Below are positions 633 through 19,789 of a stretch of 20,403 nucleotides of DNA, piece after piece. Below the pieces are notes generated by a model, which saw nothing but the letters and a program-made list of their open reading frames with translations, was not told the origin of the DNA and searched no databases. Made by a program: the position numbers and the translations under genes. Origin of the DNA: a virus; IMG/VR virus record IMGVR_UViG_3300032323_000193, positions 1-20,403 of that record. The stretch is one strand, 5' to 3'. The stretch's first letter is position 1, and each line of letters begins with the position of its first letter.

Positions 633-902
633 ATGCCATTTGAAAAAGGAATATCCGGTAACCCTAATGGTAGGCCACAAGGAGCGTTAAGTGAAAAGAC
701 GAAGATGTGGAATGAATTAGGCGAATGGTTCACCCAGCAGGGTGCAGCCAAGTGCATGCGCATCATGAATGATATGGAGGATGAGGAATACATCAAACAT
801 TACACTGCGCTACTCGAATACTTCAAACCAAAACAAGCCCGCATAACGCATAGCGGCGATGAAAAGGCACCGGTGATTATTCAGGTGCACTCAGACTTGT
901 AA
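633..902 (+). CDS. DUF5681-type / small terminase-like protein
   Basis: An 89-residue protein beginning MPFEKGISGNPNGRPQGAL. The GNPNGRPxGA signature near the N-terminus is the hallmark of DUF5681 and of many Bacteroidetes phage small terminase or DNA-packaging proteins. The middle is helical (WNELGEWF, EEYIKHYTALLEYFKPKQ). The end, KAPVIIQVHSDL, resembles the short C-terminal strand of such proteins. A role in DNA recognition during packaging is plausible, but it is inferred from the family because no large terminase gene is present in the window to confirm the pairing. The position, just before the tail chaperone rather than beside a large terminase, is unusual. The start has an A-rich leader and no Shine-Dalgarno sequence. 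Confidence 0.7.
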   Translation: MPFEKGISGNPNGRPQGALSEKTKMWNELGEWFTQQGAAKCMRIMNDMEDEEYIKHYTALLEYFKPKQARITHSGDEKAPVIIQVHSDL

Positions 903-936
903 CAAAAAGGAATCAAAAACTACAATACAACGGAGC

Positions 937-12394: not shown

Positions 12395-12991
12395 ATGGAA
12401 AAAAGAAAAGTAGTTAAGTGTGTTATTGATGAAGAAGGCCGTTTGGGTATTACCGCAATGGGCTTAGTAGATAGCCCTGCAATCGAGGAAAACTGGATAG
12501 CATTAAGCAAGATGCAGCTTGCTAAAGTGGATGAAGAACGCAGAATGCTATACGGCCCCGCGCTCATACCGGATAAGGAAATACTTCGTTATGACGAAAA
12601 GGGTGAACCCTACTATGTGTACTTTGAAAAGGCAACAGTAAGTGCGATTGCTCATCAGTTTTTCAAAAAGAATCTGCAACACACAACCAACTTGCAGCAT
12701 GAGATACCAGTTACGGGTGTGACCGTTGTGGAATCATGGATAAAGGAAGGCAAGAATGACAAGAGCATTGAACTTGGATTGCCTGAACTACCCGATGGGA
12801 CATGGTTTATTGGCACTAAGGTCGATGAAGAACATGTATGGAATGATGTGAAGGAAGGCAAGGTGCGCGGGTACAGCATAGAAGGGTTTTTTAATGAAGT
12901 AGGCGTGTCAATGAGTGGCGTTAAAAATTATGAAGCGGAATTGGTGCTGGAGTTAGATCAACTATTGAGCAGTGTAAATCCCAACAAATGA
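12395..12991 (+). CDS. XkdF-like prohead protease (peptidase S78_2)
   Basis: A 198-residue protein. It opens with an ITAMGLVDSPAIEENWIAL segment (about 19-37) typical of XkdF-type proteins. It continues with YGPALIPDKEILR and EPYYVYFEKATVSAIAHQFF, then NLQHEIPVTGVTVVESWI and VRGYSIEGFF. His102 (LQHE) and Ser161 (GYSIEG) fit the catalytic His and Ser of the S78-type, herpesvirus-assemblin-like prohead proteases, which cleave scaffold and capsid termini during maturation. The length is normal for a stand-alone protease. It is followed by a subtilase in a 4-base ATGA overlap, with scaffold and capsid genes next, the usual context for a maturation protease. The ATG at 12395 lies in an A-rich leader. 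Confidence 0.85.
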   Translation: MEKRKVVKCVIDEEGRLGITAMGLVDSPAIEENWIALSKMQLAKVDEERRMLYGPALIPDKEILRYDEKGEPYYVYFEKATVSAIAHQFFKKNLQHTTNLQHEIPVTGVTVVESWIKEGKNDKSIELGLPELPDGTWFIGTKVDEEHVWNDVKEGKVRGYSIEGFFNEVGVSMSGVKNYEAELVLELDQLLSSVNPNK

Positions 12992-15057
12992 AAATAAATG
13001 CTGTCAAATTTAAAGACAAGAAGTCTTTTGACAAAAACAAAACAAAGCCGAATGTTCGTGCTGTACATGAGCCGTTTGGTATCATTGTGTTCGAAGATGT
13101 TAACCCGGTTGCTCCTGATTTTACCAAAGTATCGCAGGCATACGAGGTAGATGGTTCACTAGATAACATCCCTTCGGGCATGGCTATTCTTGTTGCTCCC
13201 GATTTTGATGCAGCACAGGCGTACTTGCAAGGCATCAAAGTAGTGATCACTGAAACCTTTCCACTAACCAACACCATGTTCGTGGAGATTCCTGCGTTTT
13301 CATCATTCGATGAGTTCTACGCTGCACTCATTAATACCAAACTATTCACAAGCATAGAGCCCGATCATATACAACCGTTTCAAGTAGATGGCGATGGCTT
13401 CACTTATGCTCAACAATGGCACCTGCCTAACCTACGTTCACAAGAAGCATGGAGTTTAATTGATGGTGCCGCCTATGGTGAAGTGGCTGTATTAGATATT
13501 GCATGCGAGACTAATCATGAAGACTTGCAGGGGCGTATAAGTAGCACGTCATGGAACTGCGTGACCGATGCACCCGATGTAAACCCAGTGAGCGAGAATG
13601 AAAAGCATGGTACACCATGCAGCGGGTTGATATGCGCAACATCGGACAATGGTATAGGTGTATCGTCATTAGGCAACAATAAAGTGAATGTGCAATTTTT
13701 GCACATAGGATACGGGAGCAGCTCCAGCGGAAGCTTTCAAACATCGGACACCATCGTAACGCGTGCAATCAACAAGGCAATAGCTAACCCTAACTGCCTT
13801 GCTATCTCAATGTCATGGGGTGGTGGTAGCGCAACATCATATCCGTTGTTTCAAAACGCCCTCACATCTGCAAAGACAATCGGGCGCGGCGGCAAGGGTA
13901 TAGCAATCTTTGCAAGTAGCGGAAACCAATCGAGCCCAAACTTCACACAATCGCCCGCGATCTATCCGATGGTTCACGCGGTTGGTGCTTCTACACAATC
14001 AAACGTGCGTGCATCCTTTAGCAATTTCGGGCCGAAGACATTTGCAGCTACTCCTGGTGTATCATGCCCCACAACAGACCGCATGGGCACATCGGGTTAT
14101 AATGCATCGAGCAACTATACTAACTTTAGCGGAACATCATGTTCATGCCCTGTAATGGCAGCTATTGCAGCAAATGTGATTCTTGCCAATCCTGCATTGA
14201 CAGAGCCACAGGTCATTGATGTGATTAAGCAATCATGCAGAAAAACAGGCGGCTATGTATACGATGCCAATGGCAAAAGCTTGGAACTAGGATTTGGTGT
14301 GCCGGATATGTTCGCCGCTGTGAGCATTGCTAAATCTTTAGATGGTGGTGACCCTGTGCCCGTGCCAACACCTGAATATAATTTATTTGGCACCATCATA
14401 ACACCTGCTAATGCTGTGCAAGGTACAAGTGTGAATGTTGTGTATAGCGTGAATCTTGACAAGGCATACAGCAAAGACGTTACTACCAATGTGCAAATAG
14501 TATTCACAAGACCCGATAGCACTAAGCTCGTGTTCTATACGGGTGATGTAACCATACCTGCGGGCCAAACAACGGTTACTAAAACAACGCCGTTTGGTTT
14601 GCCTAATAATCAACTTGGCTCATCATTGTTTACGCTTGTGATAGATCCAAATATGCAGCTGATTGAAACCAATGAGAATGATAACAGCATAAGCACTGGC
14701 ACGAACATCACACCACTTTCACCGCCTTCAACTGGTTTAGATGCAGGTGTAACTATTGATAGCTATGAGTGGCTTGATGCTAACCGCGTGCGTATACGTT
14801 ACACGTTTTTTAATCGTGGCACGGTGGTAATCACTAGCATGAAAGTACAACATGGTTTGGTTGGTGGTTTTACTGGCACATGGAATCGCACAGATAGAAT
14901 AGAAGTAGGTAGAAGCATAACGATGGCAAGCGTTTACAACGTGACCATGCCCGTTATTGCTTTACCAACTGACTATGTGCTTACCATCACGGCTGTAAAT
15001 GGTGTGCCCGATAACAACAGCGCCAATAATACAGCACGTATGCAGATTAAAAAATAG
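12988..15057 (+). CDS. Subtilisin-like (S8) serine protease with C-terminal CARDB-like domains
   Basis: A 689-residue protein with an apparently intact S8 triad: Asp170 in VAVLDIACETNHEDL, His207 in KHGTPCSGL, and Ser384 in FSGTSCSCPVMAAIAAN. Oxyanion Asn313 is in FASSGNQSS. Residues 1-135 look like an I9-type propeptide (FVEIPAFSSFDEFYAALINT...IEPDHIQPF). Two Ig-like, CARDB-type domains follow at about 462-575 (ending LIETNENDNS) and 586-689. There is no obvious secretion signal, since the N-terminus is MKINAVKFKDKKSFDKNK. Eight cysteines lie in the catalytic part. The 4-base overlap with the prohead protease ties it to head morphogenesis expression. It may be packaged or displayed on virions to digest host surface layers, or may assist maturation; both are inference. 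A bidirectional terminator follows. Confidence 0.9.
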   Translation: MKINAVKFKDKKSFDKNKTKPNVRAVHEPFGIIVFEDVNPVAPDFTKVSQAYEVDGSLDNIPSGMAILVAPDFDAAQAYLQGIKVVITETFPLTNTMFVEIPAFSSFDEFYAALINTKLFTSIEPDHIQPFQVDGDGFTYAQQWHLPNLRSQEAWSLIDGAAYGEVAVLDIACETNHEDLQGRISSTSWNCVTDAPDVNPVSENEKHGTPCSGLICATSDNGIGVSSLGNNKVNVQFLHIGYGSSSSGSFQTSDTIVTRAINKAIANPNCLAISMSWGGGSATSYPLFQNALTSAKTIGRGGKGIAIFASSGNQSSPNFTQSPAIYPMVHAVGASTQSNVRASFSNFGPKTFAATPGVSCPTTDRMGTSGYNASSNYTNFSGTSCSCPVMAAIAANVILANPALTEPQVIDVIKQSCRKTGGYVYDANGKSLELGFGVPDMFAAVSIAKSLDGGDPVPVPTPEYNLFGTIITPANAVQGTSVNVVYSVNLDKAYSKDVTTNVQIVFTRPDSTKLVFYTGDVTIPAGQTTVTKTTPFGLPNNQLGSSLFTLVIDPNMQLIETNENDNSISTGTNITPLSPPSTGLDAGVTIDSYEWLDANRVRIRYTFFNRGTVVITSMKVQHGLVGGFTGTWNRTDRIEVGRSITMASVYNVTMPVIALPTDYVLTITAVNGVPDNNSANNTARMQIKK

Positions 15058-15111
15058 TGCTATATTCGTTGCGTTAATGCGTCAATGCGTTTTAGGTTAG
15101 AGTCAAAAAGA

Positions 15112-15138
15112 AAGGCCCAAACGAGGGCCTTCTTTTTT
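15112..15138. terminator. Bidirectional intrinsic terminator
   Basis: AAGGCCC (15112-15118) pairs with GGGCCTT (15125-15131) around the loop AAACGA. It is flanked by AAAAAG on the left and CTTTTTT on the right. It therefore works as a forward terminator 55 bases after the subtilase stop and as a reverse terminator 20 bases after the stop of the reverse-strand ribbon-helix-helix gene. Confidence 0.88.
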
Positions 15139-15158: not shown

Positions 15159-15293
15159 TCATAGGATACAGGCGCGAATATACTCCGCCACATTCATCTT
15201 TGATGCCTTCGCATTTTTTTTTACTACCTTCATTTGCTTGTCGGTTAATCTAACCGATGCTTTGTGCACATACGTTTCTGTGGTTGTTTTCAT
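15159..15293 (-). CDS. Hidden reverse-strand ribbon-helix-helix (CopG/Arc-like) protein
   Basis: A 44-residue product on the strand opposite to every other gene here. It starts at ATG 15293-15291 and ends at TGA 15161-15159. The sequence runs KASVRLTDKQMKVVKKNAKA and then SKMNVAEYIRACIL. That is a beta strand (ASVRLT), a first helix (DKQMKVVKKNAKAS) and a second helix beginning NVAEYIR, the classical CopG/Arc/MobC-type ribbon-helix-helix pattern with a (M/S)xxEYIR signature. Such proteins bind operator DNA as dimers. It has its own Bacteroidetes-type promoter at 15345-15374 and ends just before the bidirectional terminator, so it looks like a complete monocistronic gene. Its promoter lies directly before the scaffold start codon, so it may repress itself and the scaffold/capsid transcript. 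It contains a nine-A tract. The overlapping forward frame is Phe-rich and unlike a protein, so I regard it as a shadow. Confidence 0.8.
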   Translation of the reverse strand: MKTTTETYVHKASVRLTDKQMKVVKKNAKASKMNVAEYIRACIL

Positions 15294-15344
15294 ATTCTAT
15301 GTAATTATTTGCAGTTGCTAAGATAGGCATTCGGTTGGATGTAA

Positions 15345-15374
15345 CAAAACTATGTTTTTGCTACTATACCCAAA
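15345..15374 (-). promoter_or_regulatory. Bacteroidetes-type promoter for the reverse-strand RHH gene
   Basis: Read on the reverse strand, TTTG (15374-15371) is separated by 18 bases from TAGTTTTG (15352-15345), an exact TAnnTTTG -7 element. This fits the published Bacteroides/Flavobacterium consensus (TTTG or TTG, about 17-23 bases, TAnnTTTG). It predicts a start near 15338-15340 and a leader of about 45 bases before the RHH start. The -33 element lies within 15 bases of the scaffold ATG, so a protein bound here could affect both directions. No equally good forward promoter was seen in the 15294-15383 gap. Confidence 0.7.
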
Positions 15375-15383
15375 TATCCAACA

Positions 15384-15992
15384 ATGTCGAATATCAAAGA
15401 ACAAATCAAATCCGTATTCAATAAGTACGGCATTGACCCTTCAAGCGTTGGTATCAAGTTCGAAGAAGAAACTGCAGCGGCTGAAGCTCCGGCAACGGAA
15501 GTAAAGTTTGCAGTAGAAGGCACTTTGGCTGATGGTACTAAAATTTATTCTACCGCTGATGAGTGGGTAGTAGGTGTGGACATCTACACTCAAGATGCTG
15601 AAGGTAATCCAGTGCCGGTTCCTGCAGGCGAGTATTTGCTTGAAGACGGTGTTACCAAAGTCTATGTAGACGAAGGTGGCCTTATTTCTGAAATCGAGCG
15701 TGAAGAACAATCCACTGAAATGAGCAGCGAAGACCTCGTTGCTGTAATTGGTCAATTGTCTGAGCGTATCGCTGCATTAGAAACTGAAAAAACAGAGCTT
15801 GCTGCTGCAATCGAAACTGCAAAGAATGAGACCGCATCTGTAAAGGCTGAACTCGCTTCAGTTAAAAAAGCCCCTGCTGTACCTTCAGTTAAGTCACAAG
15901 AATTTAAGAAAAACGCTGCGCCTGTTGTTGCATCGAATGGTAACTCATTCAGCGACTTCATGGAAACATTGCGTGCTAAAAAAGTAAATTAA
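15384..15992 (+). CDS. Probable capsid scaffold protein
   Basis: A 202-residue acidic protein directly before the major capsid gene. The N-terminus is a short helix (NIKEQIKSVFNKYGI). Residues 35-110 contain a small beta-rich module (TLADGTKIYSTADEWVVGVD, VPVPAGEYLLEDGVTKVYVD) that I recall from Bacteroidetes phage proteins at this position. A coiled coil follows at about 115-165 (LSERIAALETEKTELAAAIE). The Ala/Pro/Lys-rich tail ends FSDFMETLRAKKVN, a helix that could bind capsid subunits. Length, acidity, coiled coil and place between protease and capsid all fit a scaffold; a specific family match is not claimed. It is the first gene after the terminator and RHH locus, so it may begin a separate transcript. 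Confidence 0.75.
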   Translation: MSNIKEQIKSVFNKYGIDPSSVGIKFEEETAAAEAPATEVKFAVEGTLADGTKIYSTADEWVVGVDIYTQDAEGNPVPVPAGEYLLEDGVTKVYVDEGGLISEIEREEQSTEMSSEDLVAVIGQLSERIAALETEKTELAAAIETAKNETASVKAELASVKKAPAVPSVKSQEFKKNAAPVVASNGNSFSDFMETLRAKKVN

Positions 15993-16017: not shown

Positions 16018-16914
16018 ATGCCAACAACAACTTCACTCACCACCACCTATGCAGGTGAATTAGCTGGTGAAATCGTAGCAAAGGCTTTGTTGTCAAACGT
16101 ATCTGCACAGTACGTGACAATGAAGCCAAACGTACCTTACAAATCAGTAGTACGTAAAATTGATGACACTGTAACATTTGCCGCAGGCACTTGTGATTTC
16201 ACGCCAACAGGCACGATCACTTTGACTGAGCGCATCTTGACTCTTGAAGAGTTCCAAGTTCAACGTCAAATCTGTAAGAAGGATTTCTTCATTGACTGGA
16301 CTACTGCTGACGTAATGAGCGGACGTGTAAACACACAAATCCAAGATGCAATCATTGGCCGTTTGGTTGGTGGTATTGCTGCCGCTAATGAAAGAATTAT
16401 GTGGGGCGGTGTTAACGCAACAGCTGGTGAATACGATGGTTTCGAAACTTTGATCAAGGCTGCAGGTTCAAACGCTGTATCTGCAGGTTCAGGTGCTATC
16501 AACGCTGGTAACATCATCGCTACCATTTGGGACATCATCAACACTACCAACGCTGCCGTTAAGGGTGCTGCTGAAAAGCCTGCATTGTACATGGGTCAAG
16601 CTGCATGGGAAGCTTACATGGAGGCGCAAATAGCTGCCGGCAATGGATGGTACTTGACAGGTGGTCCAGAGGTTAACCGTCGTTTTGTAGGAATGTACGA
16701 TATCTACGTTTGTCCGGGTATGACTGCAAACAATATCATCTTCGCACAGCCTAGCAACTTGATGCTCGGTACATGGCAAGAGAACCAAATGAACGAAGTG
16801 TTCATCTTGGATATGCAAAATTTGGATGGATCACAGAACGTACGTTACGGTGCACGTTTCTACTTGGGCGCACAGATTGCGGTTGGTGAAGACATCACCT
16901 ACTGGGGAGCATAA
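16018..16914 (+). CDS. Major capsid protein (HK97 fold expected)
   Basis: A 298-residue protein. Landmarks are TTTYAGELAGEIVAKALLSN at the N-terminus, YKSVVRKIDDTVTFAAGTCD (about 41-60), FQVQRQICKKDFFIDWTTAD (about 79-98), GGIAAANERIMWGG (about 118-131), YMGQAAWEAYM (about 191-201), and GARFYLGAQIAVGEDITYWG at the end. The order (N-arm, E-loop-like basic segment, helical spine, A-domain, C-terminal strand) fits an HK97-type major capsid protein of the Bacteroidetes-phage kind. No large cleaved delta domain is present, so the separate scaffold gene probably supplies that function. The start lies in an AT-rich leader (TTTTAATTAAAAATG), typical of highly translated Bacteroidetes genes. A terminator follows. 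Confidence 0.88.
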   Translation: MPTTTSLTTTYAGELAGEIVAKALLSNVSAQYVTMKPNVPYKSVVRKIDDTVTFAAGTCDFTPTGTITLTERILTLEEFQVQRQICKKDFFIDWTTADVMSGRVNTQIQDAIIGRLVGGIAAANERIMWGGVNATAGEYDGFETLIKAAGSNAVSAGSGAINAGNIIATIWDIINTTNAAVKGAAEKPALYMGQAAWEAYMEAQIAAGNGWYLTGGPEVNRRFVGMYDIYVCPGMTANNIIFAQPSNLMLGTWQENQMNEVFILDMQNLDGSQNVRYGARFYLGAQIAVGEDITYWGA

Positions 16915-17604: not shown

Positions 17605-17994
17605 ATGATCTATCTCCAAACAAATACAGCTGACCAACAAGTGTTTCTATCACTTGACGAGGCAAGACAATACTTTGCCACACCATTCACTCACTATTTG
17701 ATGCTGCTAATACACGAAGAAAACAGCACTACGGGTGAACAACTAGCACAGGTTGCCACCATTATTGCCGAGAATACAAGAATTACGGAACTTGAAATTA
17801 CAACCGTTGGCCTTACCTTAGCAGGCAGATATAGGTATGAAGTATATGGTCAAAATTCTAGTAGCAATATTAACCCGGCAGCTGGTGTTGTTATTGGTTT
17901 GGTGGAGCGTGGATATGCTGTATTGAATCAAAACACACAATGGTTCGACGTACCTGTTATAACCATACCAAATGATATAATCTATGAACCATAA
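17605..17994 (+). CDS. Small beta-rich phage structural protein
   Basis: A 129-residue protein (starts MIYLQTNTADQQVFLSLDEA; includes FATPFTHYLMLLIHEENST, then LEITTVGLTLAGRYRYEVYG and NINPAAGVVIGLVERGYAVL). The strand pattern suggests one Ig-like or beta-sandwich domain. I recall very similar small proteins next to the portal gene in Bacteroidetes phages, but I do not know a proven function. A decoration, head-fibre or minor structural role is possible. It is the first gene after the tail-tube terminator and overlaps the portal gene by 11 bases, so the two are probably co-translated. Confidence 0.75.
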   Translation: MIYLQTNTADQQVFLSLDEARQYFATPFTHYLMLLIHEENSTTGEQLAQVATIIAENTRITELEITTVGLTLAGRYRYEVYGQNSSSNINPAAGVVIGLVERGYAVLNQNTQWFDVPVITIPNDIIYEP

Positions 17995-19789
17995 CGAATC
18001 AAATATAGTATCGCTAAAGCTTAGTGAATACGTAGCTAAAAGTGATGCAGAGAAAGTAGACCGCAAAGGGTGGGTTAACTACGGAGATGCAAATGATTTT
18101 CCGCAATACCTACGTGACCTATCACACGAATCACCCGTGCATGGTAGTTTGGTTGTAGCTATTGGTGACATGGTAGCGGGTAAAGGCATCCAGTCTGAAC
18201 AATATCAAGCCGAACTTGATGCACTTAACGTAGACACTTTAACCTATGCATGTGCAAAGGATTTAAAGTTGTTTGGCGGTTTCTTTATTGAAGTGATTTG
18301 GAGCAATGACAGGACGGTTATATCAAAGCTAAACCCTATACCATTTGAAGAATGCCGCATTGCGGTTAATCAAGATGATGAAAGTGAAATAGGTATTTTT
18401 CACAGCTACGATTGGGGCAACATTCGCAAAAAGAAAAACACACCCGAGTTCATTCCGAAATACAACTACCTCACACGTAATGAAGAACCGCGCCAAATCT
18501 ATTGGTGCTTTACATATACCGGCAGTGATACCTATCCTCGCCCCGATTATTGGTCTGCTATCAACTACATTGAGTTAGATAAGCAGATTTCTATATTCCA
18601 TATCAACCAAATTTCAAACGGTCTATTCCCTTCAACCATTATTAACTTCTACAACGGGCAGGCAACGCCTGAGCAGAAGCAACAAATGATGATGGACTGG
18701 GAGAATAAGATGTCGGGCGCACGTAATGCAGGCAAGGTGGTTATGTTCTTTAACGAACGTGACCAACCTAAGACCGAGATTACTCCATTCCCCGTAAACG
18801 ATGCGGACAAGCAGTACCAATTGATGGACAATACTGCCACGCAAAAGATTATTACAGCACACCGTGTTACAACTCCGCTGCTTTTCGGTATCCGTGACAC
18901 TGGGGGTGGTTTCGGTTCGAACAAAGACGAAATGGCTGTTGGTCTTGAGATATTCAACAAGCAGGTAATTGAGCCTTATCAAGCAATGATAAACAAAAGC
19001 ATCGAGGAACTATTGAGTAAGCAGTTGCCGGGTGTTAGTTTTGAGATTGTACCTAATACCCCCTTAGTGATTGAGCAAGTAGCAACGGCAAACGTGAATG
19101 AAACGGTTGTTGAAGCTGCGCCTGCATCATTAAATACAGAGCAAATTACGTCAATAGTTCAAACGGTACTTTCTGCTGCATTGCCACACTTGATGGGCGA
19201 AAAAAAAAAAGATGATAGCACAGTAGGTGATGCACTTATTGCATTAGGCGAAGACTGGAAAGAAGAATGGATTTTGATTGATGCGTACAACGCAGATGAG
19301 GAAATAGAACACGAGTTTGCGGTGCGCACAGGTGCGGCAAGACCAGCGGCAAAGAGTGAGCAAGATGCCATTATCGATGGTAAATACTTTATTACTCGTT
19401 ACGTTTACGCAGGTGACTTTAGGCATGATAATATGCGCCCATTCTGCAAGAAGATGCTTGAGGCGGGCAAGCTATACCGCAAAGAAGACATTGTTTCGAT
19501 GGAAAATGTAGCGGTTAATCCCGGATGGGGGCCGAACGGTGTAGACACCTATGACATTTGGTTCTACAAAGGCGGCGGTAACTGTCAACACTTTTGGGAA
19601 AAGCGTGTGTATGTAGACGCAAAGGGCGCGAAGATTAATCCTAATGACCCAGACGCAAAGCGTATAGCTGTGGCAATGGCTGAACGCATGGGATATAAGG
19701 TGCGTAATGACCAACGTGTAGCAAAATTGCCTGTTGACCAAGATAACAACGGCTTCTTACCAACCAATCCAATCTACGGAGATCAATAA
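17984..19789 (+). CDS. Portal protein with C-terminal MuF-like extension
   Basis: A 601-residue protein. The first 380 residues are a PBSX/HK97-type portal: GWVNYGDANDFPQYLRDLSH, SPVHGSLVVAIGDMVAGKGI, DLKLFGGFFIEVIW, SIFHINQISNGLFPSTIINF, RVTTPLLFGIRDTGGGFGSN and a long helix before residue 355. It forms the twelve-subunit ring at the head vertex. A normal portal of this type ends near 400-450 residues. Here a linker containing an A11 tract (Glu406-Lys409) leads to an extra domain at about 445-565 with FCKKMLEAGKLYRKEDI (Cys488), VNPGWGPNGVDTYDIWFYKG and GGGNCQHFWEK (Cys534, His536). The C...G(K)xYxxE...CxH arrangement recalls the C-terminal part of MuF/SPP1-gp7 minor head proteins; that relation is inference. 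The start overlaps the previous gene. Confidence 0.85.
   Translation: MNHNESNIVSLKLSEYVAKSDAEKVDRKGWVNYGDANDFPQYLRDLSHESPVHGSLVVAIGDMVAGKGIQSEQYQAELDALNVDTLTYACAKDLKLFGGFFIEVIWSNDRTVISKLNPIPFEECRIAVNQDDESEIGIFHSYDWGNIRKKKNTPEFIPKYNYLTRNEEPRQIYWCFTYTGSDTYPRPDYWSAINYIELDKQISIFHINQISNGLFPSTIINFYNGQATPEQKQQMMMDWENKMSGARNAGKVVMFFNERDQPKTEITPFPVNDADKQYQLMDNTATQKIITAHRVTTPLLFGIRDTGGGFGSNKDEMAVGLEIFNKQVIEPYQAMINKSIEELLSKQLPGVSFEIVPNTPLVIEQVATANVNETVVEAAPASLNTEQITSIVQTVLSAALPHLMGEKKKDDSTVGDALIALGEDWKEEWILIDAYNADEEIEHEFAVRTGAARPAAKSEQDAIIDGKYFITRYVYAGDFRHDNMRPFCKKMLEAGKLYRKEDIVSMENVAVNPGWGPNGVDTYDIWFYKGGGNCQHFWEKRVYVDAKGAKINPNDPDAKRIAVAMAERMGYKVRNDQRVAKLPVDQDNNGFLPTNPIYGDQ
19200..19210 (+). other. A11 homopolymer in the portal inter-domain linker
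   Basis: Eleven A bases are read GAA AAA AAA AAA GAT in the portal frame. A -1 slip meets TGA at 19213-19215. A +1 slip meets TAG at 19224-19226. Either slip would yield a portal core of about 410 residues without the C-terminal domain. Whether slippage occurs is unknown, and the tract may simply encode a Lys linker. Confidence 0.5.

Follow-up and report, generated by a model that had tools for sequence, protein, structure and literature searches.

The window analysed here is a 20,403-base virus record (IMGVR_UViG_3300032323_000193) from an uncultivated phage. Opposite to its structural operon runs a reverse-strand open reading frame of 44 residues, between a subtilase-family gene and the scaffold-like gene that opens the late operon (Table 1). 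The first-pass annotation had read this frame as a ribbon-helix-helix (RHH) protein gene sharing a bidirectional terminator with the subtilase gene, and both gene and terminator are where that reading requires them. It had also supposed that genes of this size fall below usual gene-calling limits, which is incorrect: the frame measures 135 nt, and common gene finders have a default floor of 90 nt. The neighbours of the RHH gene, among those genes of relatives that were profiled, encode protease, subtilase, scaffold, capsid, and portal proteins. PHROG 24921 matches the head protease (12395-12991) with its first half and the scaffold (15384-15992) with its second, so that the two are one protein in other phages; in the window, the subtilase-terminator-RHH unit and the late promoter sit between them. 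The portal protein (17984-19789) extends about 200 residues past the C-terminal end of its Pfam portal match, with a conserved domain at the end. A search with the capsid protein against bacterial and archaeal genomes found no host or prophage.

Table 1. Features of the RHH locus and associated promoter elements in the window.
Feature	Position	Strand	Basis or remark
RHH protein gene, 44 aa (MKTTTETYVHKASVRLTDKQMKVVKKNAKASKMNVAEYIRACIL)	15159..15293	-	ORF list, profile, conservation, dN/dS, model
Subtilase-family gene, upstream	12988..15057	+	without match in many relatives where the RHH gene stays
Scaffold-like gene, first in the late operon	15384..15992	+	divergent from the RHH gene
Major capsid protein	16018..16914	+	distant relative of a Nonlabens phage P12024 protein
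Bidirectional intrinsic terminator	15111..15132		common to the subtilase gene (+) and the RHH gene (-)
Dyad of 16 bp, ATGTAATTATTTGCAG, candidate operator	15299..15314		over the predicted RHH start site; symmetry, matrix
RHH promoter -7 box, TATCTTAG	15318..15325	-	TAnnTT(A/C)G in all RHH-bearing representatives
RHH promoter -33 box, TTTG	15345..15348	-	19 nt before the -7 box; inside TGTAACAAAA of the late promoter
-35-like element, TGTAACAAAA	15340..15349	+	probable late promoter of the scaffold-capsid operon
-10-like element, CTACTATAC	15361..15369	+	probable late promoter of the scaffold-capsid operon
Second late-motif copy, TGTAAC-N16-CTACAATAC	898..928	+	upstream of the gene at 937

The RHH character of the protein is borne out by profile, model, and structure comparisons alike. 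The only profile that it exceeds above a curated cut-off is Pfam PF21983 (NikA-like; 34 bits, cut-off 27), matched over positions 6-39 of 72; RHH_1 stays below its cut-off (16.5 versus 20.5 bits) and CopG_antitoxin slightly under its own. An AlphaFold model built with 32 relatives (pLDDT 86) has helices at residues 18-30 and 35-43 and no tail after helix 2, and in relatives the chain ends at residue 44 or 45. The best Foldseek matches of this model are AtaR, Arc, the N-terminal fragment of NikA, and CopG, with probabilities of 0.9-1.0 and, for so short a chain, E-values of about 0.1 or weaker. The profile match covers the strand and the two helices, and the predicted fold resembles known RHH structures, the model being that of a monomer and the strand one that pairs only in the dimer. 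Searches of the protein against annotated phages (best E 0.06) and of its profile against PDB sequences returned nothing convincing. The 44-residue frame encodes a real RHH protein.

Relatives were fetched through their capsid and portal proteins. This gave 81 loci covering the region, a count that includes the window itself and in which some contigs are represented more than once. The reverse frame is conserved in 80 of these 81 loci, at the same place and on the same strand, always divergent from the scaffold gene and with its end at an identical position or one to two residues further on; it stays in place where the upstream subtilase has no match. A search seeded with the RHH alignment likewise gave 80 loci, all with the scaffold gene divergent and all with a promoter of the same type upstream of the RHH gene. 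The three codon positions have diversities of 0.28/0.20/0.57 and dN/dS has a median of about 0.10, so that a chance ORF is rejected by conservation and by this ratio; judged from these alignments, the gene is under strong purifying selection. Its sole loss is in locus L072, where, by comparison with the close relative L079, about 200 bp comprising the gene and the -7 box are gone. L072 keeps the plus-strand element of the late promoter and thus represents a natural knock-out, indicating that the RHH gene is not absolutely required. Apparent losses in L058, L059, L070, and L079 were rejected, since the ORF is present there, below the reach of BLAST.

The promoter originally assigned to the RHH gene proved to be wrong. 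TTTG-N18-TAGTTTTG does occur as a literal string on the minus strand from 15374, but among 31 representatives it is found in the window alone and was rejected. The conserved promoter is instead TTTG(15348)-N19-TATCTTAG(15325-15318), and the "TTTTG" within the sequence formerly taken for the -7 box is the true -33 box. In the alignment of the gap, TTTG-N19/20-TAnnTT(A/C)G is present on the minus strand of all 30 RHH-bearing representatives. The -7 box is one base off the flavobacterial sigma-A consensus TAnnTTTG (PMC9723704) and is of the Bacteroidota sigma-A type. At the other end of the unit, the terminator stem is preserved through compensatory changes in relatives. From these conserved elements we infer early, leftward transcription by the host sigma-A polymerase. 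The RHH promoters of L002, L005, L071, L075, and L079 have a GGCTACATTAGCC palindrome over the -7 box and are without a start-site dyad of the kind described below.

On the plus strand, the scaffold gene is preceded by a different motif, TGTAACAAAA-N11-CTAC(A/T)ATAC, a near copy of which, with a gap of 12 nt, stands before the gene at 937. Genome scans gave 20 matches to this motif in ten sequences, where 1.0 would be expected, and 19 of these fall at the same pair of late sites. There are only two copies per genome, and the 898-928 copy overlaps the stop codon of the gene before 937. A sigma-like gene lies at the start of the late arm in all of the nine relatives examined initially, and 22 of the 23 near-complete records have one. 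Its product matches the PHROG 1740 sigma factor (E 1.2e-6), and the structures nearest to its model (pLDDT 66) are SigH, RpoE, SigL, and sigma-E region 4 (Foldseek probability about 1.0, best E 1e-3), placing the fold nearest to ECF sigmas, with regions 2 and 4 of that type. The two-box motif is therefore the probable late promoter of an ECF-type sigma encoded by the phage, and this sigma would read both copies. Two side observations concern these records. In several genomes, the sigma gene (L152:3726-4283(+), L149, L156, and other relatives) has a conserved N-terminus without a clear ATG, GTG, or TTG start, the frame opening ...QIDCVSIHIGKHYN directly after a stop, so that an unusual start codon is possible. 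Records G004 (L152/L153) and G010 (L156/L157) have identical ends of 127 bp and are thus probably complete genomes, of about 31-34 kb.

The early and late promoters are physically interlocked: the RHH -33 box lies inside the plus-strand TGTAACAAAA, so that the box TGTAACAAAA/TTTTGTTACA is common to both, and this overlap is conserved even where the neighbouring subtilase has no match. Because of the shared box, the two promoters can hardly be occupied at once, as their geometry suggests. The earlier proposal that the RHH promoter abuts the scaffold start codon thus holds in that the promoter is locked against the start of the scaffold-capsid transcript, although through another promoter than the one proposed. 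Coupling of the RHH gene to scaffold transcription would be more directly explained by the overlapping promoters than by binding of the RHH protein. No ECF-type late promoter sharing a box with an RHH promoter was found in the literature searched, nor did that search return reports on RHH proteins or ECF sigmas in Bacteroidota phages.

Over the predicted RHH start site lies a 16-bp dyad, 2-3 nt downstream of the -7 box (CTGCAAATAATTACAT in the window; ATGTAAAAAATTACAT or GTGCAACTAAATGCAC in relatives); its core is the window's sole strict TGYAAN4TTRCA. Symmetry at the start site exceeds that of shuffled sequences (mean 4.3 versus 3.4, highest shuffle mean 3.8). Similar TGYAA-N4-TTRCA dyads occur at two distant early promoters, one beside the sigma gene and one before the recT-like gene. 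When about 32,000 positions were scored in 23 genomes with a matrix trained on these two kinds of site in other genomes, the start-site dyad of the RHH gene had a median rank of 12 (range 2-90). The recT-side dyad stands directly or almost directly before an early -7 box (17 genomes); on the sigma side, two of these genomes have the dyad next to the -7 box, and in others it is placed at the leftward early promoter's -33 region. On the sigma side, 49 of 60 distinct regions reach a dyad score of 9-10 out of 10, versus fewer than 2% of shuffles. In this region, for example in G018 (L343/L344) and G001 (L148/L149), a second dyad, GTGTACATTTGTACAC or similar, is placed over the leftward early -7 box next to the first, which suggests paired operator sites. 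The RHH dyad of the clade with lysine at RHH residue 10 (GTATAAATAAATAC) matches the other two sites weakly, ranking as low as 90, and from the RHH promoter of the L002-like clade such a dyad is absent. The start-site dyad is about 25 bp from the late promoter elements and not on the scaffold promoter. On the strength of these motifs, the chief targets of the RHH protein would appear to be early genes and not the scaffold cistron. A literature search for CopG operators found nothing. As for the suggestion that the RHH protein may repress both its own promoter and the start of the scaffold transcript, its first half is supported by a probable operator at the start site, which makes self-regulation plausible; repression of the scaffold promoter is possible, and not the best-supported reading.

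The candidate operators fall into two classes by their outer base, and these classes are mirrored in the RHH protein: residue 10 is lysine in all genomes of one class and not lysine in the other, the divergent G012 being set aside. An outer G accompanies Lys10 in 27 of 30 half-sites on the recT side, versus 1 of 14 without it, and in 27 of 28 versus 0 of 10 on the sigma side; since Lys10 was chosen post hoc and in genomes of common descent, Fisher values for these counts are not true probabilities. Among 20 proteins tested, columns that separate the classes perfectly are found only in the RHH protein, in a 78-residue helix-turn-helix (HTH)-like early protein, and, as one column, in the protein at 937. 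In gene trees built from full ORFs, there is a single change of operator class on the tree of the RHH protein, and likewise on that of the HTH-like protein, as against two to seven changes on 13 other gene trees (four each for the neighbouring scaffold gene, for sigma, and for recT). In the HTH-like protein, the classes are told apart without exception by V33, G45, and S46 of the presumed recognition region, and a strong association is seen for 11 of the 79 columns. The fold assigned to this protein is a putative one, read from its sequence by eye; it has no family match in Pfam or PHROGs and weak PDB matches only, and its profile found nothing convincing among PDB sequences. Since the genomes are mosaic, the operators and the two proteins, RHH and HTH-like, are inherited as a set even though many kilobases separate the RHH gene from the others. 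This covariation ties the RHH protein to the operators without identifying which protein binds them, and the Lys10 association was rejected as decisive proof because the HTH-like protein shows the same.

We therefore propose, tentatively and at somewhat less than an even chance for the reading as a whole, that the window derives from a Bacteroidota-type tailed phage and that its RHH protein is a putative small transcription regulator, an autoregulated repressor of early genes within an early/late switch. The RHH gene would be transcribed leftward and early by the host sigma-A polymerase, from TTTG-N19/20-TAnnTT(A/C)G to the shared terminator. RHH dimers would accumulate and bind TGYAA-N4-TTRCA-like dyads, the one over their own start site giving autorepression and the stronger ones acting at two early promoters, before the recT-like/exonuclease operon and at the leftward early operon beside the sigma gene. 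Binding there would turn early transcription down. The phage ECF-type sigma would then direct polymerase to the TGTAACAAAA-N11/12-CTAC(A/T)ATAC late promoters, and, through the box shared with the RHH -33 element, late transcription from the scaffold-capsid promoter would shut the RHH gene off. A broader form of the switch, in which sigma-A and ECF-sigma promoters share a box, the RHH and HTH-like proteins, two unrelated small DNA-binding proteins, share early operators, and all of these co-evolve in mosaic genomes, we regard as doubtful, if well within reach.

Of the alternatives, the one that fares best is also less probable than the early-gene repressor, and deserves serious weight: the 78-residue HTH-like early protein would bind the three dyads in the fashion of Cro, with the RHH gene as one of its targets and the RHH protein acting on another, unrecognised site or together with the HTH-like protein. 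The HTH-like protein tracks operator class as well as the RHH protein does (V33, G45, and S46; one change on the tree), and an HTH dimer would fit a dyad of 16 bp made up of two half-sites. However, its fold is putative, its gene lies close to the sigma-side dyad, so that the covariation may partly reflect linkage, and this account leaves unexplained why a distant RHH gene tracks operator class.

It is unlikely that the RHH protein acts mainly on the scaffold operon promoter, for instance at a CAAAA-N6-TTTTG inverted repeat, and keeps late structural genes repressed until its own dilution or removal. The spacer of that promoter does contain an imperfect inverted repeat, CAAAAC...GTTTTTG, with a T-rich right arm that is conserved here and absent from the other late promoter, and a small viral RHH protein, SvtR, represses a structural gene (PMC5569661). 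But the left arm is already explained by the two promoter boxes, core and right arm vary and are often asymmetric, the motif is single-copy, and better dyads lie on early promoters. Being imperfect, this repeat was rejected as the main operator and kept as a rival one. A good deal less probable still is a locus whose functional core is the promoter overlap itself, through polymerase exclusion, with an RHH protein that acts chiefly on host promoters: the overlap is conserved without a neighbouring subtilase match, but the RHH protein co-segregates with a phage operator class. That the gene is a leftover antitoxin or relaxosome (NikA/MobC) gene of a lost mobile element is hardly credible, its best family matches being NikA-like and antitoxin RHH models but the chain having nothing after helix 2, where a type II antitoxin would carry a tail, and the gene being followed by a terminator, flanked by structural genes with no toxin gene adjacent, under strong selection, and at a fixed place in 80 of 81 loci.

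Gene regulation in Bacteroidota phages is little known. For an abundant group of uncultivated phages, the locus yields candidate sequences of early and late promoters, an ECF-type sigma, and operators that can be tested, and it shows that a protein of just 44 residues can have a fixed place in a circuit of this kind. Parts of it recall known systems. The NikA/MobC family supplies the one profile passed, over positions 6-39 of 72, and a NikA fragment is among the top structures, but the gene is embedded in a capsid operon. CopG is nearly the same size, with the same predicted beta-alpha-alpha topology, but RHH_1 remains below its cut-off and the replicon context is absent here. As with T4 gp55-type late sigmas, a phage sigma here probably redirects host polymerase to late promoters; unlike them, it resembles ECF sigmas, is associated with a two-box TGTAAC/CTAC promoter, and had no match in 50,697 annotated phage records. 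During lytic growth, the autoregulated Arc protein of P22 represses phage promoters. Like the RHH protein it is a very short phage protein, and it is among the top structural matches, although a PDB sequence search detects no kinship; the RHH gene, moreover, opposes a capsid operon and adjoins an ECF-type late promoter, in a phage whose gene lists contain no recognised lysogeny module. SvtR of SIRV1 is a small viral RHH protein that represses itself and a structural gene, the latter being its strongest site (PMC5569661). It belongs to an archaeal virus with archaeal transcription machinery, whereas the strongest candidate sites of the RHH protein described here are on early promoters. By analogy, then, the kind of system that we propose is a known one, Arc and SvtR showing that small viral RHH proteins can do such work.
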